NCBI GenBank assembly: GCA_015832175.1
Contig: WJXW01000017.1
Coordinates: 372,001 to 436,000, forward strand
Direction: 5' to 3'
Source: Paraphaeosphaeria minitans
Taxonomy: Eukaryota; Ascomycota; Dothideomycetes; Pleosporales; Didymosphaeriaceae
Length of the DNA: 64,000 nt
Made by a program: the position numbers and the translations under genes. Shown here piece after piece: positions 508-17,112 of the stretch. The notes under the pieces are model-generated. The model was not told the origin of the DNA and did not search any database. It saw only the letters and a list, made by a program, of their open reading frames with translations. Position 1 is the first letter of the stretch. The number at the start of each line of letters is the position of its first letter.

Positions 508-1649
508 GGAAATTCAAGTGTGGTGGAGAGGACAGATTGCTCGGTCCTGCTTCGCGACAGGACTGCCACCTGTTGTGTGTTTGGTTATCGGACTGTGTAA
601 GGCATGGTACCGGTAGGCAGGGTGGGAAAGCGCCTTCGGGATCAGATACCACAAAGGCCACTTGAGGTCTAGAGTCGGCGAGCGCGCAGTACTTGGCTTC
701 TGATGCAGCTGGTTGCGGCGCACGTTGCTTGCATGGCTTAGTTTTCTCTTTCGAACGCAAGCATCTTCAGACAGGAAATGGTATTGCACATGATGCTCGT
801 ATTGTTAGTGACGCGTGGATTGACCTAGAGCATGTCTTATAGTGGCCTGACCCGTGTAGCAACCCAGGGCGCATCTCATAGTGACCCGTAGACTAAACCA
901 GAGCACGTCTTATAGTGACCCGTAGACCAAACCATTGTGCGTCTTATAGTGACCTGACCCGTGGACCAACCCAGAGTGTATCTCATAGTGGCCCGTGGAC
1001 CAACCCAGAGTGTATCTTATAGTGGCCCGTGGACCAACCCAGAGCACGTCTTATAGTGACCCGTAGACCAGACCAGTGTGCGTCTTATAGTGACCTGACC
1101 CGTGTACCAACCCAGAACGCATCTCATAGTCACCTGTAGACTAGCCCAGAGTACGTCTCATAGTGACCCGTGGGCCAACCCAGAGCACGTGACTATTTGT
1201 CGACGTCATCGGTATAGGGTCTGCGATGGAATCCAAAATGCCACAACCCAACTAGCCAGCCTACGAGCTGCAAGCAATGACTGCTGCGGAGGGTAGATAG
1301 CAAGGAAGAACACGCAATGTCGACATGGCAGCGCTGTGCATCCTCCCCTTGACGGGGACGCGGTAGTCGCGAGCAGCTAGACCGTTTTAGTCCGGCGATG
1401 CGCCGGTTCGGTTCAAGGAAGGCAGCGGCGTTGACCCCCGGACACGATTCTTTTCGCGATCACCTCACAAAGAAACATCTCGGCCAGCGCGCCTTGGAGA
1501 CGTGTCAGCGCGAATCCGACCACATCAGCATACTCTCCCGACGGCTGCCAACCGTGCGATAGCACATTTAGGCTGATTCATGTTGATTCCGGGTGGCGCG
1601 CGGTGGTCCCCTTGCTGTGACTTATTGTGAGGAGGCTCCCAGCGCAGCC
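508..1649. other. Intergenic region upstream of SWR1
   Basis: No convincing gene. It contains the 34/39-bp minisatellite (835-1189, listed separately), and the remainder is unique sequence that should include the SWR1 promoter. I see no clear TATA box. Confidence 0.6.
835..1189. repeat. 34/39-bp minisatellite, 10 units
   Basis: There are ten head-to-tail units, each beginning tctYatagtg and continuing ccYgtRgacYaacccagag. Seven units are 34 bp. Units 1, 4 and 8 are 39 bp because of an extra CTGAC-type insertion before the cccgt. 3x39 + 7x34 equals the 355 bp of the array exactly. Units differ at several positions, so this is an old, diverged array. Confidence 0.9.
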
Positions 1650-4600
1650 ATGTTTGTGATGGCCTCTGACCCACAACCGACGCCTGACCACGACGATGTC
1701 CCCTCCGCCGCGATTCACGACGCGCTGCCAGCCGACGACGACCAGACCCTCGGAATAAAGGAAGAGAGAGAGACATCGGCACAGAATGGCGATGCCGACG
1801 GCGATGACGCGATCCGGGCGTCGCGCCCTGCGAAACGGCGGAAGCTCGAGAGCATCACACCGCGACGGTCGCTGTCACGCGCCGCCTCGCCCCCGTGGAA
1901 GTCGTTCACAGCGGACGGCCCCACGACCATTTTTGATAATGGCGTGAGGAAGTCGTCGCGCGTGAACCGTGAGGCACCCACCCCGCCCGAACCCGCCGTC
2001 AAGAAAAGCACGCGCGGTGGTGTCGCGAGGGGGATCCAGACGAATGGCACGTCCAACAACAGCAGTAAACAGAGCTCGCGCGCAGTCTCGTCCTCTGGAA
2101 TGCCTGCCAAAGCAAAGACTGCATCCTCGGCAGCGAAGAAGAAGGGTCCGGCACCGCCACTGCAGTCGCCAACGCGCAAGTCTGAGCGCAATAAGAGAGC
2201 CTCGGCCACCGCGCTCGCCACTTCTCCCGCGTCGCCAGCCGTTGCGAAAGCGTCCTCAGAAACTCTCCGGAAGCGCCCAGGACCCAAGTCCACCTTGACT
2301 GCAACCGATGACGCAGCTCACACCTTCGACCCCGCCGAAGACCCCGTTGGCCCATACGATGGAATGAATGGGAATCCGTCAGACATGTCCACACCCCGCA
2401 TTCGACTACGCTTTCGAAAACTCGACCCACCGACGCGTCATCCCCACCACCTGCCGCCTCCACGAAAACATTCGTCGTTTGCCGAATGGTTACAACAAGA
2501 TGACCCATTGGAAGGAGAGGAGGGTCACAAGATAACAGAAGAGGCGGCGAAAGAAGAAGCCGAGCGCCGACTGCGAATCGTTTATGCTGCCGAGCGGGGC
2601 GTTCTGAGTCTGGGACGTTGTAGCATATTCCAACCTGAAGCAGCGGACGAACCCCCACCGAAATATGGCCACTGGGATCACGTCGTCAACCATGCTCTTA
2701 CCTTCAACAAGCTCTTGAGGGAGGAAAATGCATCTCATCGGAAGATAGCGAAGACGCTGGCAAGAGAAGCTTATGACTATTGGAAAAACAAGTACAAGCG
2801 AAAATCGCAAGATGAAATCGATCAAGAAGAGTCGAATCGCGCCCTGCTCAGGTACAAACAGCTTGTCAAAGACGTCAAAGATACATGGGTGAATGTCAAG
2901 GTCGAAATTGACAAGGAGCGCGTGGCAAAGTGGGAAGCGGAGCAGGTACAACTTGGTCACAAGGCGATGGACGACATGTTCAATCAAGCCCAGGAGATCT
3001 TGGGTCGTAACGCCATCGATTCTGCATCATCTTTTGTGAGCGATGACCGCGACACCGAAGGCGAAGGTGGAGACTTTGGGAGCGGCACATCGCAGGTCTC
3101 AGGCGGAGAAGAAGTGGACCATCAAATGACATCCGATTCCGAAAGCGATGAGGGACATGAAGAGGATGTGGACGCCAACCTGACTGCTGAGCAACTGCGT
3201 GCCAAATATGAACAGCTGCCCGACCTCCCAGATGATGGCTCCAGTGCTGATGAACGGGAGGATGAAGAAGACGATGAGGAAGATCAAGACGAGCCCATGG
3301 ACGAGGAGAATCGAGGTACACCTGAGCCGACCCCGGACGCAGATCTCGAATTGCAAATAGCAATGGAAAACGGCGACATTTCATTGGACGATCCATTCAC
3401 GTACTCGAACGGTGTTCATAAAGAGGGCGTCGATGAAGACGAAAAGAAGCCAGATTACATTGACCCGGCTACTGTCGAGTTAGAAGCAGTAGACGAAGCC
3501 TTGCTGGATTCTGACGACGATGCGTCTGGATCTGGCAGCGAGGAATGGCCGAGTGATGAAGATGAGAATTCTGATGAGGGCGATGAAGACCAGTCAGCTC
3601 CTGGTTCAGAAGAAGAAGAGGAAGAGGAAGTAGAAGAGGGGGATGACGACGCCGGTGTGATGGGTTTCCTGACCCCGGCTGAGATTAAGAAGCTGAAAGA
3701 GTCCGCTAAGATGGTTGTGGAAGGCATCAACGGAGACGAAAAAACACCTGTCAATGGCACGCACCACGCAGATGGCACGAATGGTACACATGAGGTTCAC
3801 GAAATCGAAGAGAAGGACGTCACAGTTATCGCGGACACCAACGGCACGCTGGCAGACGTCGATACTACGGACATAGATTCGGTTTCACGCGATGTCACCT
3901 CTCAAGCTGCACCCGATTCCATGGAGATTGACACACCCGAGCCCGAGGAAGATACTGAGATTGTGCCCGAAAAGGCCATCACTATGGGTCGCTCTCGGCA
4001 TCCGTCTGAACCTCCGCGTGTCGAGATTCCATCACTTCTACGAGGTACACTCCGCGAGTACCAGCATGATGGCCTTGACTGGCTTGCCAATTTGTACGAA
4101 TCTGATACAAATGGAATCCTGGCTGATGAGATGGGCTTGGGCAAGACTATTCAAACTATCTCAGTGCTAGCATACATCGCTGTTTATCGACAGAAGTGGG
4201 GCCCACATCTAGTCGTCGTTCCCACCAGTGTCATGTTGAACTGGGAGATGGAGTTCAAGAAATTCCTGCCGGGCTTCAAGATTCTCACGTACTATGGAGA
4301 CATTGCCGAGCGAAAGAGAAAGCGTGTTGGCTGGCGAAACACAGGTCGGGACATGATCAACGTCGTCATTACCTCGTACCAGCTTATCCTCCAGGATGCT
4401 GCAGCGTTCAAGATGCGTGCGTGGCAATATCTTGTTCTGGATGAAGCCCACAACATCAAGAACTTCAAGTCTCAACGATGGCAGACCATGCTGAATCTCC
4501 GGACCGAGCGACGTTTGCTTTTAACGGGTACACCACTACAGAACAATATCGACGAGCTTTGGTCGCTACTCTACTTCCTGATGCCAGCTGGCTTCGCAGG

Positions 4601-6758
4601 CGAAGGTCGCATTGCCGGTTTAGAAGAATTCACGATGGCCCTCAAGAACCCAACTTCACAAATCCTAGACCAAGGACGGCAACAGCTGGACGCAGAAGCT
4701 CAGAAGATCGTCAAGAAACTTCATGAGGTCTTACGTCCTTATCTCCTACGCAGACTCAAGGCGGACGTTGAAAAGCAAATGCCAGGAAAGTACGAGCACG
4801 TGGTGTACTGCAAGCTGTCAAAGCGACAGCGACAATTGTATGACGGGTTTATGGGCCGCGCTTCGACCAAGGAGATACTGTCGTCCGGGAACTACATGTC
4901 AATTATCAACTGCTTAATGTCACTCCGAAAAGTCTGCAACCACCCTGACCTATTCGAGACCAGAGCCATTGTGACCTCCATGGCCATGCCAAAGTCAGTT
5001 GCTGCTCGTTTCGAGATCAAGGATCTTCTCATCCGGAAACGATTGTCCGAAGGCTTGGAAGACAAGCGAGTCAACTTGGACGCATTGAATCTTGTGTTTG
5101 CCCACCGTGAGCGCACTTCGATGCTGCAAGCCCGGAGATCGCAGCAAATCCGCGCTACTCGTCCGTTGGAAGACCTCATCGAAATCCATACACGCCGTAT
5201 CAATAAGGCTGCCGAATCGGGGCCATGTTCGATCCAGTCTACAATTGCGGACATGGCAAACAGGGAAAGAATAGCTGTCCGAGACCATCTTCGGGTATGC
5301 CTCAAGCTCACTCGTGCCCGGACACAGTTTTTGCCTATCTACGGCAAAGGTCTGATCGATCGGCTTACCCTAGATTACGAGAGCTATGCGTTTGGTGCTC
5401 GTGAACCAGATGAGCAAATCACTGGACCTCCACCGCCATCTTACAACCCGGCGTATCCTCCAGGCATGCAATATCATCAGCCAAATCCTTTTGGGCATGC
5501 ACGTGTCATTGGAATCAAAGAAGGTCGTCGTGGAAGGCTGGGCTTCCGGGAACCGCTCGGTCCTGCATTTGCTTCATTGTGGCATCAGCAAAAGATCAAT
5601 GCTTTCACCGAGATGATACCCACACTTGAGGAACGTGCCGAAGCTCTCGAGCCGCTTGTCACACGCTTCACTTGTGTCACTCCAGCTGTTGCGGCCGAGG
5701 AGTTGGCCTCTTTAACGTTGTCTACTACTGGTGTACAACTCATACGGTCATCGGAGATGGTCCGCCATCGAGACCCTTTCCACGAGTCCCGCATCCGCCA
5801 GTCTATTGCTTTCCCTGACAAACGCCTCTTGCAATATGACTGTGGTAAGCTGCAACGACTCGCAACTCTTCTTAGAGACCTTCAGGCAGGCGGTCATCGC
5901 GCACTCATCTTCACTCAGATGACCAAAGTTCTCGACATCCTCGAACAATTCCTTAACATCCATGGCCACCGCTATCTCCGCCTCGACGGTGCCACCAAGA
6001 TCGAGCAGCGACAAATTCTGACCGATCGCTTCAACAACGACCCTCGCATCCTCTGCTTCATCCTCTCCTCCCGATCTGGGGGTCTCGGCATCAATCTCAC
6101 AGGTGCAGACACTGTCATCTTCTACGACCTCGATTGGAATCCCGCGATGGACAAGCAATGCCAGGACCGCTCCCATCGTATCGGTCAAACACGTGACGTC
6201 CACATCTACAAGTTCGTCTCGGAATACACCATCGAAGCCAACATTCTACGCAAGAGCAACCAAAAGCGCCTTCTCGACGATGTCATCATCCAGAAGGGAG
6301 ATTTCACAACCGACACCTTCAATCGCGTGAGCTGGCGTGACGCCCTCGATGACGGCCTCGGCGACGAAGCCGGCGCAGCCATGGACCGTGTGCTCGGTGA
6401 AAAAGCAGGTCTCCTGGGCGACGCGCGCGTTATGGGGACTGTCGAGGACACCGAGGACATGGCTGCTGCGACGGTCGCGCAGAAGGAGATTGTCGACGAG
6501 ATCCATGATGATCAGGTGGACTTTAGCGAGAGCACAGCGGCGACGCCGGGCGGTGCGACGAGAGCGGGGAGTGAGCTAGGCGAGGACATGGCGGGAGGAA
6601 TTGATGGGGAGAGGTTGCGGCGACATGTCGATGAGTATATGTTGGCTCGGTACAGGGACGAGTACGGGAGGGAGCCGTACAAGCCGCCAACGGATCGGCA
6701 GAAGCGGAACAGGAAGGGTGGGGATGTGCATCGCACGCACAAAAAGAAGAGGTACTGA
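1650..6758 (+). CDS. SWR1: SWR1 chromatin-remodelling ATPase
   Basis: Catalytic subunit of the nuclear SWR1 complex, which exchanges H2A for H2A.Z in nucleosomes using ATP. It is a single exon of 1702 aa from the first in-frame ATG (gcagccATG); a second ATG lies three codons on. Order of parts: a basic, Ser/Pro-rich N-terminus; an HSA domain at about residues 338-411 (KYGHWDHVVNHAL), which binds actin-related proteins; a long Asp/Glu-rich stretch around 465-690, as in histone-binding regions of this family; the SNF2 ATPase lobe from about 800 with DEMGLGKT near 825 and DEAH near 931; a large insertion; and the second helicase lobe from about 1416 (ALIFTQM, then the DRSHRIGQ box). The split ATPase and HSA domain together separate SWR1/INO80-type from other SNF2 proteins, and the acidic N-terminal half favours SWR1. 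Length is close to that of other fungal orthologues. Confidence 0.96.
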   Translation: MFVMASDPQPTPDHDDVPSAAIHDALPADDDQTLGIKEERETSAQNGDADGDDAIRASRPAKRRKLESITPRRSLSRAASPPWKSFTADGPTTIFDNGVRKSSRVNREAPTPPEPAVKKSTRGGVARGIQTNGTSNNSSKQSSRAVSSSGMPAKAKTASSAAKKKGPAPPLQSPTRKSERNKRASATALATSPASPAVAKASSETLRKRPGPKSTLTATDDAAHTFDPAEDPVGPYDGMNGNPSDMSTPRIRLRFRKLDPPTRHPHHLPPPRKHSSFAEWLQQDDPLEGEEGHKITEEAAKEEAERRLRIVYAAERGVLSLGRCSIFQPEAADEPPPKYGHWDHVVNHALTFNKLLREENASHRKIAKTLAREAYDYWKNKYKRKSQDEIDQEESNRALLRYKQLVKDVKDTWVNVKVEIDKERVAKWEAEQVQLGHKAMDDMFNQAQEILGRNAIDSASSFVSDDRDTEGEGGDFGSGTSQVSGGEEVDHQMTSDSESDEGHEEDVDANLTAEQLRAKYEQLPDLPDDGSSADEREDEEDDEEDQDEPMDEENRGTPEPTPDADLELQIAMENGDISLDDPFTYSNGVHKEGVDEDEKKPDYIDPATVELEAVDEALLDSDDDASGSGSEEWPSDEDENSDEGDEDQSAPGSEEEEEEEVEEGDDDAGVMGFLTPAEIKKLKESAKMVVEGINGDEKTPVNGTHHADGTNGTHEVHEIEEKDVTVIADTNGTLADVDTTDIDSVSRDVTSQAAPDSMEIDTPEPEEDTEIVPEKAITMGRSRHPSEPPRVEIPSLLRGTLREYQHDGLDWLANLYESDTNGILADEMGLGKTIQTISVLAYIAVYRQKWGPHLVVVPTSVMLNWEMEFKKFLPGFKILTYYGDIAERKRKRVGWRNTGRDMINVVITSYQLILQDAAAFKMRAWQYLVLDEAHNIKNFKSQRWQTMLNLRTERRLLLTGTPLQNNIDELWSLLYFLMPAGFAGEGRIAGLEEFTMALKNPTSQILDQGRQQLDAEAQKIVKKLHEVLRPYLLRRLKADVEKQMPGKYEHVVYCKLSKRQRQLYDGFMGRASTKEILSSGNYMSIINCLMSLRKVCNHPDLFETRAIVTSMAMPKSVAARFEIKDLLIRKRLSEGLEDKRVNLDALNLVFAHRERTSMLQARRSQQIRATRPLEDLIEIHTRRINKAAESGPCSIQSTIADMANRERIAVRDHLRVCLKLTRARTQFLPIYGKGLIDRLTLDYESYAFGAREPDEQITGPPPPSYNPAYPPGMQYHQPNPFGHARVIGIKEGRRGRLGFREPLGPAFASLWHQQKINAFTEMIPTLEERAEALEPLVTRFTCVTPAVAAEELASLTLSTTGVQLIRSSEMVRHRDPFHESRIRQSIAFPDKRLLQYDCGKLQRLATLLRDLQAGGHRALIFTQMTKVLDILEQFLNIHGHRYLRLDGATKIEQRQILTDRFNNDPRILCFILSSRSGGLGINLTGADTVIFYDLDWNPAMDKQCQDRSHRIGQTRDVHIYKFVSEYTIEANILRKSNQKRLLDDVIIQKGDFTTDTFNRVSWRDALDDGLGDEAGAAMDRVLGEKAGLLGDARVMGTVEDTEDMAAATVAQKEIVDEIHDDQVDFSESTAATPGGATRAGSELGEDMAGGIDGERLRRHVDEYMLARYRDEYGREPYKPPTDRQKRNRKGGDVHRTHKKKRY

Positions 6759-7311
6759 GAGACCTCGTTTTTTTGTTTCCGCTGGGGGAGTGTATGAGGT
6801 AATGAGGATGGAGGCGTTTCAAGGTGTCGTCATTCGATGCATTGTATTAGTAGCGAGGTGTAGCATGGTGCATTTTGTGAGGCGCAAGGTGTCGAGGGGC
6901 AGGAAGCATAGGCCGGAACTGTATGAATAGGTGTTTGGAGGTGCATGAGGCATGGGCAGCACAAAGTCTGCATGAATGGCGTCTGTCGGCAAGGTTGTGT
7001 CTTCGAATGGAAAATCGTATGCTTTTTTTATCATGTTTTCTGCCATCATCTCTTTGCGTTCTGGAAGCACCTACTGACCAGGGCACACTAAGTCCAAAGC
7101 CTACCTAGGCTCTGGCATGTGTGTGGAGCGAGGATGAACAGAAGGTCGACTCAAACTTCCCAAAGCGGCAGTAACTATGGCATGGTAGACTAGGAATCTA
7201 ACTACCAGCGGCAACCCCAGATGCCTGCCAAAATTTGTCGACCCAAGTCTGCACCACGCCCATCGCACCACCACAACACGATAAACGCTCCCACCACCCA
7301 CACAGAACACA
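6759..7311. other. Intergenic SWR1-RRP7
   Basis: Same-strand spacer. A T-run soon after the SWR1 stop and the A/C-rich leader before the RRP7 ATG are the only features seen. Confidence 0.6.
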
Positions 7312-8389
7312 ATGGCCTCTCCGGTGCCTGTGAAAAAGCGCAAAAGCACACCCACGGCCGTCGCAGACTTCGCCATCCTCCCGCTCGCGCTGCCCACACC
7401 GCCCGGCCTGCCACCCTCGTGCGCCGACGCAAAGCACTACCTTTATGTCAAGGCGCACGCGCCCGCCATAGCCACCGAGTCCACCGCGCGGTCGCTCTTC
7501 CTCGCCAACGTGCCCATCGATGCTTCGGAGGCGAATCTGCGCGCACTCTTCGCCGAGCAGCTCGGCGGCGCGCGGGTCGAGAGCGTAGACTTCGACGCCA
7601 GCGTGCCGGCAGAGGTGGCGCACAAGCACTTCAAGCCCGCCGAGGTGAGCGGCGGAAAGAAGGACGGCCCCGAGAGCCGCGGGAAGAAGCGCAAGCGGGA
7701 GGCGGACGGCAACGGCAACGGCGGGAAGAGCGACATGGTAGCCGAGGGCGTGCTGGAGGACGACGACAGCGCGCTGCCGCGGATATGGAGCGCGCCGGTG
7801 CGGAGGAGTGGGTCCGGCGCTGTGGTGGTGTTTCTCGACAAGGCGAGCATGCGGGGCGCGTTCAAGGAGGTGCACAAGGCGATCAAGGAGGGGAAGACGA
7901 TAGCCTGGAAAGGCGGCGACGCGTCGGGCGTTGAACGTATGTCTTCCCACACACCTACGCACCGAGCGCGAAGGATATGCTCACACACGCAATCTAGGCT
8001 ACAAATCACACCTCGCCCTCCTCCACCCACCCACCACCCTCCTCTCCTCCTCCACAAACGCCTACCTCGGGCAATTCGACGCCGCCGCCGCCCAGCGCTC
8101 GCGGGCTCTCGCACACCTGCGCTCCGTCCCCGACGAGGACGGCTTCATCACCGTGACCCGCGGCGGCGGCCGCAGTCTTCCCGCCGCGCGCCTCGACATC
8201 GCGCAGCAGAAGCAGGCGGAGCACGAGGCCAGGATGAAGAAGAAGGGGGATCTGGACGGCTTCTATCGGTTCCAGAATCGCGAGAAGAGGAAGGAGCAGG
8301 AGGGCATGTTGCGGAAGCAGTTTGAGAAGGACAGGAGGAGGGTGTTGGAGATGAGGGAGAGGCGGGGAAAGGTTAGGGTGGAGACGTGA
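7312..8389 (+). CDS. RRP7: Ribosomal RNA-processing protein 7
   Basis: Nucleolar protein of the small-subunit processome needed for 18S rRNA maturation, acting with UTP22/CK2 in yeast. Two exons, 7312-7936 and 7998-8389, give 338 aa. The 61-nt intron runs gtatgt...ctag and splits a codon after its first base. The N-terminus has the family-specific segment with an RRM-like fold (YLYVKAHAP, then SLFLANVPID near residue 65). The C-terminus has the diagnostic DGFYRFQNREKRKEQ and a basic coiled coil ending in RERRGKVRVET. In the middle a Lys/Glu/Gly-rich insertion (GGKKDGPESRGKKRKRE) is longer than in yeast. The start ATG (acacaATGGCC) fits a fungal consensus. It is transcribed in the same direction as SWR1 and convergent with the next gene. 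Confidence 0.92.
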
Positions 8390-8710: not shown

Positions 8711-11700
8711 CTAGCTCATCACATCCTCGCCCCCAGCATACCTCCTCGCACTCGGGTTCTTTCCATGCACTCCTCCATCCTGACCATACTTCCTCTTCGC
8801 ATTCGGATTCTCTCCAAATACTCCTCCATGCACAATACCAGTCCCAATCTCCCGACTCTCCCGGCCTGGGTCCTGGTCTTCATAACAACCGCGCATCAGC
8901 CCAGCGATACCACTGGCGGTGACGTTGAGCGACCCACTCGGGCCTCCAAGGCCCGCGAGCTGGAGCTGCGTTTGGCCGGCCTCCATGGAGTCGCCGATCG
9001 CGTCTCCCTCTTTGCGAACATACTGGCAGTCACGCACCAAGAGCGAAGAGAACTCTTCGACCCCTTGATGCGGCGTCGCCATCTTGCCGTAGCCCTTGGC
9101 TTTGTTCGCAGTTGGGGCGCCGTGCCCGTTGGCGTTGCGCTCGGTCACTTTTTCGGCAGCAGCCTTGGCCGTTCCGGTGCCTTCCACGTCGAAGTTGCGC
9201 TCTGTGTGCATGTGATTGTGATTGAGACGTGCGGTGGCAGGCGCAACAGAGTGCGCATCGGCACGTGTATGTACCTTCTCCCAGAACAGCGAAGAAAACG
9301 CGTTGCGGAAGGAGTCAAGTCCGCGGGGGAATGTTTCGCTGGCCTTGAGTGCGTTGCACTCCCAGTACATCTGTTCTTCGCCGAGGTGGAGGAACCTACG
9401 CGACAGGAGACGTTCCTGGAGCGACCACGCCCTCGTATCCCAAGCAAAGCCTGGCGTGAGGTACGTGCTGAGTGGAAGGACGGCAGCTTGGAGCGCTTGT
9501 TGGTCGACGCCCTTTTGTGTTGCCACGATGGTGAGCGCCGCGTTGCGATATACGTCTGCCATGGCGCGGGATTCGCGTTGCTTGTCTCCCTGGGAGTCCT
9601 GCAGAACGCAGAGATTGTCTACCCATAGGTATCGGAAGCCGATGTCTTGCGCCTTGGCGATGGCTTCGTCGATGGCTTTGGGTAGGGTGCCGCGAGGTAG
9701 ATTGCGTTGCATAGCGTCCAGACGAGCAGTTGAGAGCTGTAGCTCGTCATCTGCCCAAACGTAGCTGAGTGCTGCGTAGTCGGAACTTTCGCGATCTTCT
9801 AGGTCCACGCTACTGACAATGCGAACGGAGACGCCTGCACCATCTTCTGGTGACATGTCAATCAGACGGGTGGGTAAGGTCTTGTTGGCACCAAACCCTT
9901 GTAGGTCGTGACGACAATCAGCGTGGTCGTGTGTACACTCCTCGAGCCAGCGCTTGGCATGACGAACGGTTTCGCCTTGTCGCTTCTGTTGATCATCCAC
10001 ATCATGTGGATGAGTACATCCTTCTCGGCCATCTTCCTGGCAGAAAGATTTCACTGTTTGAAACTCTTCAGAGGGTCCAGGATACGTGACCTTGTCGTTG
10101 GGCCAACTAATACAGCAAGGTGCGGGTGTAAACACCATTGTCAGCTTAGGTGCAGTTGGTCGTGCGGCTGGTTCGGAACTGAGCATTTCCTTGATAGTAC
10201 TCGTAGCATTGGCTTCAGTTCGAGATGCTGCTTGCTCGAGAGACTGGGTCAGCAGGCCTTGCAGGGCAGGGACGTCTTGCCAGTAGTATTTGCCCTTTCG
10301 TCCGCCAAATAGTTGGCGGAAGTCAAGCCAGCGCGTATTATCTTCCTTGTAGGCAACTGTTAGCATCTCCACGAAGACGCAGCCGAGTGACCAGATGTCA
10401 GATGCGAGCTCGCGTGAGACACCCTCAGATACTTCGGGCGCGCAATATTGGCGTGTAAGTGGCATTGTGGTGCTGCTCGCAGTGATCGCACCGATCGAGC
10501 TGATGCCAAAGTCACTCAAGAATACATGTGGTACATCCTCGCCTTGCTTGACAAGGATGTTCTGAGGCTTGATGTCCATGTGCTTTACGGCTGGTCGCTG
10601 CTCATGCAGGTACCGGATTGACGAGGCAAGGCAGCCCATCATCGTGACAATGGTCTCGCTTAGCCTGTCTGGCCTGTTCTGCAGCTTCATGTCCAGCCAA
10701 GCGGCAAGTGTTGTCTCTGCTACTGGCGAGAGCAGGATCGACATCCTGTCGCCCTTTTGGACGCTGTCCACGAACCGGATAATGTGGGGATGGCGGAGTT
10801 TCTTGAGAACATCGACTTCGTTCTTCAGTTCTTCAATGGCGGAGCGTTCCCGGTTCTTGAGGGTCTTGCGGGCAAAGCGTAGGCTCGTTTCGCGATGGAC
10901 AACTTCGTCGACCGTACTAAAGCCGCCAGCGCCGAGGAGCTTTAGACTACCGAGAAGATCTTGCGTCTCGCGGGTCGTTGATCCTGCTAGAAAATGAGAC
11001 TTGCGCGTCCTCTTGGAATTCTCAATCTTCTTACCATGGGACACTGCCATTGTAGCCTTCAGGCGATCTGGCGCGGCATCTCCGTCGCTTGGAGGATCGA
11101 ACAGCGGTACCGTCTGAAGCTGAACGACGCCGGTGCTTAGCAAGGAGACATCATCTCCGGCCACAGACTGCGAGTTATCTCTCGTTGCTTCATCGTGCCA
11201 CCAATGCACAGAGCATCCATCGGTGGGTGTTGCACGTTGTGTTGTGGCGGTGGCGCAGATTGCACCCTGGGGTATCTTGCTGCACGTTGCACCGTCCAAT
11301 CCGAAGGCTGGTTTAATGTGCTGCTCATTCGTAGAGTCCTGTTGAATGTGCTGCTCGACTCCTGGTGATGAGCCTCTGCTATCGCCGTCTGCGAGCTGTG
11401 AAACCTGGAACTGGTAGAAGCCGCTCTGCGGAGGTTGTGAGCCGCTGCCGCCGTTGCCGTTGTTCTTCGATCCAGAGCCAGAGCTAGAGCCACGAGGATC
11501 ATGTTCCGGTGGGAAGAAAGGCTTGCCATTTCCGAAGCCGCCGCTATCAGGACGGTCGTCATTATCGTCATCGTCATTCATGTCATCAGAATCATTGGTG
11601 TCCTCTTCGTTCCAGTCAAGCATGCACTTGCCGTTCTTGAAGTGGTCTGCGATATGGTCGATGCGATCTTGTCGAGATACGAAGCGATGGGTGCAAAAGC

Positions 11701-13292
11701 CGCATTTTCTAGCGGCCTGTGGCAGGCTCGTGTCAGAGTGTCTGTAATGAGTCAGTCAAATTTCAATACATGTAGGTTAAATCAATGAACTTGACCACTC
11801 TGCGAATGCCTTGAAGGTGGAGAAAGCCAAGCCAAGCTGGAATTACTTACACGACAGACGACTCTTCGTGATCGGCAGAATTCAGCCCAGGGTGAATGTT
11901 CCTGAAATGCTGAGAGAAATGATATTTTCGAAAACACGGCTTTACGCGCTCGACACCCTCGCTGACACATAGGCCTGCTGAACGTTAGCATGTTGTGCAA
12001 AAGGATGTACCAAGGCTCGTCAGCTGCCTCAGGGGCATCTATGCAGAGCCGACTGTACGCGAACCGATGCCCAAGTCTATGCTATCCATCGTACTGCAGG
12101 CGCTTGCATGCGAATCCCAATCTGCAAGAATGAATAACTTACTGCACAGCCAGCTCTTCGAGGGGTAAGCTTCCTCCTCATTCCGCTTCCAATCACACTT
12201 CCTCCCATACCATCTTCCGCACTTTCGTGTGCACTGGTATATTTTGTTCGGATCTCTCTTCAACAGCTCCGGATCCTCTGTTGGGTTGCAACCTTTCTTT
12301 CCCCCTCGCAGTGTAGACTGTGAGATCGTCGTCATCGCGGCTTGCGTCTCACGGGAACATGCGACATCAGGAATCATGAGTTGCTGCGATGTAACTGCGG
12401 CCGTAATAGGAGTCAACTGTGGGAATAGTATTGGGTCCTGAGCAAATCCTGTTTGTGACTTGTACGCGGAATCCTGGCCGGTCATCCCCTGCTTCAAAGC
12501 CTGACCGAACCACTGTCTGATGGCTGCTGCTGACTCGCCAGTGAGTTGAGCAAGAGAGCCAATATGCCTGTCACTGGGAAGGGGTTAGCAGTCCATTGCA
12601 CCACCTGGGTAGAACCATGCACTAGGCAAGTCTGCTTACCTCGGGAGTACGTTGTACTTGCTGAACCAGGTTGCGCACACGTCAGCAGCTTCGTCGCTGA
12701 GACCCGTCACATCAGAACTGGCTGCTGGAGTGGGCTGGGTTTCGAGCGCCCAGTTACTCGACCCTGTCATGGAACCCGTGGTAAAGGGCGAGAACGCCTC
12801 ATGTCGCTTCGCCGCGGGGAAGTCCTGTACATCTAGCTGAAGTGGCCTCTTGTTGATTTGAGGTGTGTATAATGAATCAAAGGTCTGCGCAGGCGTTGTG
12901 GTGAACATACTGTTCCATGAGGCATCTCCGGCGGTGTTACCCAAGCCCTGAAAGGTCAGCTAGGCACCGCTATGCGATCACGAAACGTTCATAGTAAAGG
13001 TGTGGAGTGCACCCACGACCTAGTATGATACGAGATGAGAACATACAAGAGGTTCCATTCCAAACGCTGTGCTGTTCATATCGCCGACCGGCGCAAATAT
13101 TGAGTCAAATGAATGGTCAAATGTAGCCGTCGTGTCGATACCCTCGTCGCCGAAGAAGAATGCCGAAGAAGTATTACCCTCTCCAGCACCCTTCAAGTCA
13201 TCAAAGACAGGCTGCATGCCGAATCCTGTGAAGTTGATGCCAGCGCCCGCGTTGAAGTCGAAGTCGGTGTTGTTGCCGCCCTGAGAAGCCAT
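8711..13292 (-). CDS. Homeodomain-like / C2H2 / protein kinase / HET fusion
   Basis: Five exons on the minus strand: 13292-13047, 12947-12640, 12573-12143, 11974-11851 and 11741-8711. All introns have GT-AG ends and phases agree, giving 1379 aa. Parts in order: a Gly/Asp/Phe-rich N-terminus; a homeodomain-like helix region at about 165-216 ending IRQWFGQALKQG; a Cys/His-rich segment (CTRKCGRWYGRKCDWKR, then SWLCSLC and YHFSQHFRNIH) at about 285-355; a C2H2 finger with C383/C386/H399/H403; a Ser/Thr kinase at about 635-905 (GAGGFSTV glycine loop, K662, HMD with D759, DFG 780-782, APE 804-806); then a HET domain from about 1025 (YAALSYVW, LWVDNLCVLQD) to RAWSLQERLLSRR near 1140-1152. The tail has two copies of a GGV(F/H)G(E/K)NP motif. 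The zinc-finger half resembles a fungal C2H2 regulator family; HET domains mediate non-self recognition and cell death. One open frame of 3 kb links kinase and HET, so the fusion is genomic. What it does is unknown. Confidence 0.85.
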
Positions 13293-14295: not shown

Positions 14296-17112
14296 TCAGG
14301 TCGCGCCCTTGATGAACCAATCAGAACTGGCGTCCACCATATAATTGGTAATGTTGAACTCGTTGACCGGTTGTCCATCAGGCATTGCGGTCTGCATGGC
14401 GCCGTCGGACGCTACATATGTGTTCGCGCTGTCCATCGATGCAGGCAGCCTCGGCATGTTGAAGAAATCGAATACATCAAGATATTCCAACTCATTGGGG
14501 GCTGGAGTCCGAGCCGGGGTTGGCTGGTGGCTGGGATGCATCTTTGGCTGTCGCGCAATGAGAAAGTCGAGGTCGAATGCGCAGCGGCGCATGTCTGCAA
14601 GTATTCTAACGGTAGACGGGGTGATGCGCTCTCCGTTTAACCCGGCATTTTGTTGCGACTCTTGGTATTCCAGCAGCACGCGGGAAAGCAAATTGGCGTA
14701 GCGAGAGCCCACTTCCCAGTACGCACCCATTTCTCTGAGCGTCAAGACGAGCAGGTGGATGGATTCATCCACGCGGTGAGCTATCGTCGAGCCATGGACC
14801 AACAGAACACGAGCCGCAACCCACAAGGAGAAAGCGAAAGGCGGACCGAGCTTCGTCAAGAGACCATTTTCGCGAATGTATTGGCAGAGCATCACGATGC
14901 TCTCGACGCCACTTAGACATCTTTGACTTGCGCTGAAGGAAGGCGCGAATATTGGTGAGCGGTGGGTAGGGTATGCGGCAGAAGAGTGTAGGCGGATGAC
15001 GGTACTATTCAAGTTAGCACATCTCGAGGCGCGAGGCCGGAGTACGTACGTGTGGAAGGCGGCGTGCAACATGATCAAACTACTGTTAAGATCCTTGCTG
15101 GCTGCTGGTCCTGCGAAGACACGCGTTGCATTCCCATATTCAGGCGGCAAGTTGTACTTCCATTGCTCAAGCGTGCTATCCAGTGCACGATACTCGCTTT
15201 GCCATTTCTCGACATCAGTCAGAGACGTGATGTCAACCGGCTGCTTCAAAAAATCGTGAATGCGGGATAGTATCTCTAGTATCTCCACATAATAGGAAAA
15301 CGCCCCCAGATTCTCTGGTCGATTCAGTGTAAAATCCGTGCGCGTTGACGTACGAAACCAACGAGTCTCCACTGACGTGTTGCGAGTGAAGAACTCGTCC
15401 CGGCACGGAAGTTGACGATCGATTTCCTTTTCGTCAAGTGCGAATTCGAAGGCGGTTGCAACGGTCGCATATCGATCAAGAACGTAGATCATCCAAAACA
15501 ATCGCCTTCGGCTTTCCTCCATGATCCAATCCGTCGGTTCCGGGAGGACAATCGCACGCAACGTATAGATGGACGCGTATTGAGGGGCTACTTCTGGCGA
15601 AGAATTTTCGACTGATAACCCAAGGTTGACGATCGACCGTGTGATCAAAGCCAGGAGGTTCCACCCCGGAGGGCCGTTCGAGCATCCCACGACATCCAGC
15701 GCTAGTATGACGAGTGCCTGCAGTGACTTGACCGAACTATTCTGGATTCCGAACAATAGCACTTTATCTGTCGAGTTCCGGTGGTAGTGCTCTCTCTTTT
15801 CTGGGGTCAAACGAGGGTCAGTCGAAAACCTCAGGGTGGTTGCAACCATAGCATGTAGGAGGATTCGATCCGCCTCGTCCAGACTGGTGTCCCCAAAAAG
15901 AGAATTCAAGGTCGCTTGACGATGAAGAATTGGACACCAAGGGTAAATGTGCTTGAAGAATAGGTCCACTAGACCATAAAGTAAGTCGTACGGTGGAAAG
16001 TCCTGGTCGCCTCGCGCGAGTGCTCCGGCCATTGATGGGGGAGCGAAACGATCGTTGTTGAAGGCAAATGCATCTCTTTGTTGTAACCCCCCCACATTCG
16101 ACCCAGCATCCTCGGGCGAGTTATGATAGCCATTGCTGCCGACAGACGGCGCATGCCGCGCGTCGGGTACTCCACCAGAAAAACTTGACTGCAGGGGGGT
16201 TGCAGTTGCAGCAGAGAAACTACCTGGTTTCTGTATGAAAAGTGCTGTTTCAGGCCGTGGTACATGTGGCGTTTGCTGCAAAACAGTAGGGCTCCGGAAG
16301 ACCTGTCCGGCCTGCGGGGAAGACACAGCCGGCGTGGCCTGGTTGCCAGAGAGTTGGTTGATCTGATTCTGCTGTTGGTGGAGCAATGACTCCAGCTTAT
16401 CTGTTCCGAGTCAGCCTATATCCCACGTTCGCTTGATAAATGCTCCTTCTCGGTTTATCTCGAACTAAGGCTGAATTCCATGCAAAGTTTGTCCTTATCA
16501 TAACAAGAAGATAAAGGTCCTTTCCTCGATTCTTTGATGTGGGAGGAGTGTGAGTGTACGTAAATCGACTCACCAAGACGGGCCTCTAGCTCTCGGCCGT
16601 AACCTGCGCGCAAACCTGGCTTCTTTCGCGGTAGATATATGCATCCAGAGTGATTCTTGACACACCAACCACAGCTTGGTTGGCCACGGTCGCACTTGAC
16701 CTGTAACACCGTTAGCAACAATCAAGGGGTCAAAAAATAAAGTAATCGCCAACAGCTATGAAATGTTTTCGCGGCGCGTTGCTCCAGTGTGTACCTCCAA
16801 AGGCAGGGGCGTAGGAAGGTGCCCTTGCGGAGCAAGCTCCCGGGTGACACAGCGACATACAATTGCGAATTTCAACCAACTCGAAACATTGCGCATTGGT
16901 TTACTCACCTTGCGCTGCTTACATATCTCGCAGCTAACAGAAATGGGGCGTTTGCGCTTCGTTGCGCCGCTGGTTTGGATGGCTTCGTCGCCGCTGGATC
17001 CTTCTCCGCTCCAGTCCTGCTCATCGGTCGGCGAGTGCTGCGATAGCTTCGCGTGGCTCTCCGGGCTGGTATATGGGCGCGTCCCATTGCCGTTGAGCGA
17101 AGCCGTCTCCAT
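14296..17112 (-). CDS. Zn2Cys6 transcription factor
   Basis: Nuclear DNA-binding regulator of the fungal Gal4 type. Exons 17112-16909, 16700-16574, 16400-15050 and 15004-14296 give 796 aa. The zinc cluster is perfect: C61-X2-C64-X6-C71-X6-C78-X2-C81-X6-C88, split by intron 1 exactly after CKQRK. A short coiled coil follows (ELEARLDKLESLLHQQQNQ), formed across intron 2. A fungal-specific transcription factor domain covers about 250-560 (FFKHIYPWCPILHRQ). Intron 3 is only 45 nt, in frame and free of stops, but has a donor gtacgt, a GCTAAC branch point and a TAG acceptor. Removing it restores the family-like FHTTVIRLHSSAAYP. The target is unknown. It is divergent from L-rhamnonate dehydratase with a shared 673-bp promoter, so control of that gene is plausible. 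The start is the first ATG in frame. Confidence 0.88.

Follow-up and report, generated by a model that had tools for sequence, protein, structure and literature searches.

HET genes are described as abundant and highly variable, the role of most of them being an open question in the accessible text of two reports (PMC10197012, PMC10890737). Known HET genes vary strongly among strains and species, as far as the available text goes (PMC10197012, PMC10890737, PMC1325252), and part of one report states that few HET genes are het genes (PMC10890737). Fungal transcription factors that combine a homeobox with C2H2 fingers include, in the accessible part of one report, TmHox2 and TmHox7 of Talaromyces marneffei (PMC11508405); in part of another, rice-blast Hox7 appears as a Pmk1 target (PMC9430611). 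Here we describe a gene on the minus strand of a 64,000-nucleotide stretch of the Paraphaeosphaeria minitans genome (contig WJXW01000017.1, positions 372,001 to 436,000; hereafter the window), in which a regulator-like head, a protein kinase and a HET domain are joined in one protein, confirming what an original prediction had observed from the nucleotide letters. That prediction called the full combination not known, which, to the extent of our searches, is fair for print; the proteins are, however, already deposited publicly, labelled as hypothetical or as kinase-domain proteins. Our literature search, outside which most subscription papers lay, found no published description of the regulator-kinase-HET architecture. 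Given this domain combination and its joint inheritance, we infer, with a probability of roughly 45%, that the gene may encode a conserved kinase-gated HET signalling protein and not a polymorphic non-self gene.

Results

The gene runs from 13292 to 8711 on the minus strand, to which all gene features below belong; its five exons, separated by GT-AG introns and consistent in phase, encode 1379 amino acids. Exon 1 (13047-13292, ATG at 13292, residues 1-82), exon 2 (12640-12947), exon 3 (12143-12573) and exon 4 (11851-11974) were placed by sequence and splice sites, and exon 5 (8711-11741) carries in one frame the last zinc finger, the linker, the kinase, the HET domain, the tail and the stop codon. 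Exon 5 is part of a 1014-codon open frame that contains both Pfam matches. The coordinates and frame predicted for a single five-exon gene were correct, as was the claim that kinase and HET share an exon without a stop. One correction is indicated: residues 606-622 are absent from the orthologue proteins P0001-P0003 and correspond to a probable in-frame GT-AG intron of 51 base pairs (10984-11034) within exon 5. Because these orthologues lack the residues and the borders read GTAAG...CAG, the gene more likely has six exons and a protein of 1362 amino acids; other protein models, for example P0004 and P0007, read through this intron. If retained, it adds an in-frame basic stretch between linker and kinase.

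The same domain order, which the original prediction proposed to look for in other Dothideomycetes, was found. A homologue search gave 212 matches at an E value of 0.001, and 119 of the best 120, which were listed, carry both the kinase and the HET domain. The nearest is a P. minitans protein with 3 differences over 1362 aligned residues. The sole exception, P0113, looks like a gene-model gap, since the HET-bearing P0102 from its own species matches it at all but 2 of 1183 aligned residues. A kinase-HET profile search, from which 120 of 478 matches were listed, showed a sharp family border: both domains were present in 49 of 49 listed matches at 541 bits or more, and HET in 0 of the 71 below. 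One match at 435 bits (P0230) lacks HET yet has a tail motif, RDCQWIRKQGD, like RDCQYVRKEGD of the window protein, reflecting either a model error or a real loss. The 120 homologues and 41 further proteins from the profile search form a family set of 161. In 100 of these, the two finger motifs, the kinase loop and YWEC all occur, without exception in one order; short metagenome predictions make up many of the remainder. Taxonomy was looked up for four hosts (two Pleosporales and two Dothideomycetes of uncertain order); as far as we recognise them, we take the named hosts to be Pleosporales, and no separate search of other orders was made. These comparisons indicate that the fusion is an inherited unit, not a one-off, in a large group of fungi.

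An assembly join or a chance frame was therefore rejected, in agreement with the original prediction, on the grounds of the shared open frame, the listed homologues, the family border and the constant motif order. The broader alternative, that assembly or gene calling wrongly joined two or more genes, is largely refuted and must be judged very improbable. Head pieces and kinase-HET pieces are indeed predicted separately in metagenomes, 20 of 67 head matches lie on contigs equal in size to that of a kinase(-HET) match, and P0124 of Exserohilum turcica (459 amino acids), the only one of 68 head matches with an organism name, is annotated as a head only, whether through truncation, a split model or loss. 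However, a single open frame here spans the last finger, the kinase and HET, both domains recur in many genomes, and the motif order does not vary. Among the matches listed, no convincing stand-alone close relative of the head or the kinase was found.

Separate trees were built for the head (62 sequences), the kinase (63) and the HET domain (63) from the window protein and 62 named proteins, omitting for example P0083, P0111, P0113 and P0117. Each tree recovered six of seven preset family groups, based on what we take to be the family assignments of the genera, against a mean of 0.02-0.03 groups for shuffled labels; the seventh, Didymellaceae, was single in all three trees only after Lizonia had been added post hoc, giving seven of seven. 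Since the three trees recover the same groups, they indicate that head, kinase and HET have travelled together by vertical inheritance as a unit, and a young one-off fusion was ruled out. The parts differ in rate, with median distances of 2.05 for HET, 1.20 for the head and 1.04 for the kinase, so that the rate of HET is about double that of the kinase.

This pattern bears on the claim that the protein serves non-self recognition. In a classical incompatibility (het) determinant, the head or linker would recognise a non-self partner and HET would kill the fusion cell, and the variable linker and tail suit such a role. In addition, two of five same-named pairs show 115 and 240 residue differences, which weighs against a conserved signalling protein, although these pairs are perhaps species complexes or model errors. 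By contrast, the other three pairs differ by only 2-5 residues, the three modules are inherited vertically, and the gene is present in one copy: a head search of the same genome revealed no second copy, the remaining matches having E values of 2.5e-5 or worse. As few HET genes are het genes in the accessible text of one report (PMC10890737), we consider a het determinant improbable; the recognition claim is thus weakened but, given the two divergent pairs, not refuted.

The kinase domain (10142-10945; PF00069, E value 2.1e-43, 149.1 bits) appears intact. As predicted, all main motifs are present, the catalytic K, HxD, DFG and APE positions being kept in all 121 proteins compared (the window protein and the 120 listed homologues), in which 20 of 24 checked motif positions are invariant, including K662, H757, D759, N764 and D780-G782. 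Across the set of 161, HxDxKPxN occurs in 159 proteins, and DFG and APE each in 161.

The HET domain has a Pfam-matched part at 9491-9778 (PF06985, E value 2.1e-22, 80.5 bits against a cut-off of 22.5, profile positions 1-95 of 146), and the C-terminal motif RAWSLQERLLS sits beyond it, with YWEC, in conserved columns at 9356-9490. The hallmarks W1032, D1078, C1081, W1142 and YWEC are kept in 117-120 of the 121 proteins. From 76 HET matches in the same genome, 25 loci were taken for comparison; after exclusion of one with a stop (L003) and removal of one identical copy, W1032, W1076, D1078, C1081, Q1084, R1140 and W1142 were identical in all 23 aligned proteins. L022 and L023 (G000:C15:714727 and C20:102220), on different contigs, have identical HET translations and represent a recent duplicate. 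The C-terminal tail (8714-9247) is variable save for a short motif around RDCQYVRKEGD. Scans of the 1014-residue exon and three upstream frames gave no NACHT or NB-ARC match at an E value of 1, no TIR match stood out in a Foldseek search, and a structure model of kinase and HET showed no confident packing of the two.

Position 1146 (W-S-L-Q-E, codon 9415-9413) is our candidate for a TIR-type catalytic Glu, because its W-x3-E spacing resembles what we take to be that of TIR helix C. A functional Glu common to HET and TIR is reported, the residue itself not being named in the accessible text (PMC9815663, PMC9153377). E1093 was dropped as a candidate, being E in 117 of the 121 family members but in only 6 of the 23 own-genome HET proteins, as against 22 of 23 at the 1146 equivalent. 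Within the family, 91 proteins have E at position 1146, 25 have D and 4 have N, and one has a gap. The D or N versions include all 12 named Pleosporaceae and 6 named members elsewhere; in three of the members with N, W1142 is replaced by H and Q1145 by L. Mapped on the kinase tree, the changes number 6, against 15.8 for shuffled labels. Therefore, given that the own-genome proteins have E in 22 cases and a gap in one, some lineages may have retained the protein although its HET part lost an enzyme role.

These substitutions lend some weight to a less probable alternative, that the protein is a kinase regulator whose HET part serves as an adaptor (a pseudo-enzyme) that recruits the kinase to other proteins of the HET or TIR-like kind, with no internal death enzyme. 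The 29 proteins with D or N, together with the doubled rate of the HET part, would suit an adaptor, and TIRs without the Glu occur according to part of one report (PMC9153377). However, E is kept in 91 proteins, including those of the window and Delitschia, most other HET hallmarks are retained, and 1146 is a candidate assignment for the catalytic residue. On balance, a kinase-gated HET module remains our preferred reading.

The head comprises a homeodomain-like segment (12480-12716, residues about 160-216, interrupted by the intron at 12639-12574) and a Cys/His zinc-finger block (11627-12242, residues about 296-408, exons 3-5), delimited by family conservation and hhalign. The original prediction was right about these modules. 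The Pfam cut-offs were missed: Homeobox_KN (PF05920) gave 12.0 bits against 24 in the window protein (E value 0.2) and at best an E value of 0.044 in six members, in which zf-C2H2 and zf-C2H2_4 reached only 0.35 and 0.033; PHD was also below its cut-off (0.025-0.029). By contrast, a profile of the six heads aligned over 238 columns (probability 96.0, E value 4.9e-9) with the own-genome Homeobox_KN protein L058 (E value 1.2e-16), homeodomain first and finger block second in both, and the finger block also aligned with L054 and L059. One finger has C-x2-C-x12-H-x3-H spacing (C383, C386, H399, H403), with 115 of the 121 proteins keeping both C and 116 keeping H403. Because of the alignments with L058, L054 and L059, the head is best called a divergent homeobox/C2H2 regulator module.

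The linker between the last finger and the kinase is variable across the family: from CGFC to the glycine loop it measures 259 residues in the window protein, with a median of 295 and a maximum of 826 in the 113 proteins measured. Four of the 161 proteins have a further Pfam domain, placed in the linker by rescans: ankyrin in P0014, NACHT-type NPHP3_N (profile positions 4-53 of 164) in P0027, ketoacyl synthase C (80-110 of 119) in P0196 and ubiquitin (7-57 of 72) in P0198, the last two being metagenome predictions with fragment, kinase and HET in one protein. Patatin pieces were found joined to this kinase in P0233 (44.8 bits, outside the 161), and below threshold in P0180 (a patatin start joined to a finger, outside the 161) and P0035 (within the 161). 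A Pfam scan of the window's own linker gave no foreign-domain match, and scans of 33 and 39 further members yielded only weak extras, namely APH (0.0084, one), Vert_HS_TF (0.0043, three), Collagen (0.0027, one) and Pkinase_fungal, a kinase model (one); a foreign linker domain as a general rule was therefore rejected. Seen by eye, with no Pfam match at an E value of 0.01, the P0044 linker has further finger-like stretches and an Hsp70-like start (IGIDCGTTFSGVA), and that of P0024 further finger-like stretches and a ketoacyl-synthase-like stretch.

The foreign pieces are possibly merged gene models. Speculatively, they might instead be captured baits, by analogy with the integrated domains (decoys) of plant nucleotide-binding leucine-rich repeat receptors (NLRs). 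The protein would then be a vertically inherited guard tethered in the nucleus or to chromatin, with the linker as a bay capturing ubiquitin, NACHT P-loop, ankyrin, ketoacyl synthase and patatin pieces, and with HET as a pseudo-enzyme in Pleosporaceae; we regard such a guard as unlikely.

Among the 76 HET matches in the genome, at least two are in frame with a kinase match, namely this gene and L051 (G000:C6:968000-976500, frame 3241-5616 on the plus strand, 792 amino acids, kinase upstream of HET); the count is a lower bound because the search for kinases covered 125 of 205 candidates. In a third pair, kinase and HET lie in separate frames 3.75 kilobases apart. The gene itself is flanked by an HSA/SNF2 helicase frame (1723 amino acids), RRP7 and a Fungal_trans gene, in the window regions 1587-8389 (plus) and 14296-16410 (minus).

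Discussion

We favour a fixed signalling role over allorecognition because of the near-identical same-named pairs, the vertical inheritance and this helicase, RRP7 and Fungal_trans neighbourhood. In the mechanism that we propose, the head, a derivative of a regulator with a homeobox and C2H2 fingers, would serve as an anchor on DNA, on RNA or on a partner, and the kinase would respond to its cue by switching on. Phosphorylation, whether within the protein or in trans, could then open or assemble the TIR-like HET module, which would signal towards stress arrest or cell death, perhaps as an NAD (nicotinamide adenine dinucleotide)-linked enzyme where the catalytic-type Glu is kept and as a scaffold where it is lost. 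Both the control of HET by the kinase and death as the output are put forward on this conditional footing, and the protein would be part of a conserved pathway and would not determine allorecognition specificity. The fusion of HET in cis with an intact-looking kinase, inherited as a unit across many genera, offers a good entry to HET function: the module can be removed, or kinase-dead and Glu-dead forms made, within a single gene, and nature supplies E and D/N variants with which to compare them.

The HET plus ankyrin subfamily of Aspergillus is likewise a HET group related by direct vertical descent, as far as the accessible text describes it, but has ankyrin where a kinase and finger head stand here (PMC1325252). 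HET-D/E/R, HET-6, TOL and PIN-C share with this protein a HET domain above the Pfam cut-off with hallmark motifs; here, however, no NACHT or WD40 was found, HET follows a kinase, and the parts are inherited as a unit. L051 resembles it in placing a kinase upstream of HET within one frame, but its kinase match is weaker (69 bits) and different, and the own-genome search gave it no head match. Plant NLRs offer a comparison only: in both, occasional foreign pieces occur within a conserved signalling protein, but there is no homology, a bait role would be speculative here, and the window's own linker has none. Finally, TmHox2, TmHox7 and rice-blast Hox7, which has a C2H2 part, resemble the head in the order of homeobox and C2H2 part, and L058 matches the whole head. 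Unlike these fungal factors, the head described here is without a Pfam-level homeobox, mostly has R or Q for the N of WF-x-N, and runs on into a kinase and a HET domain.
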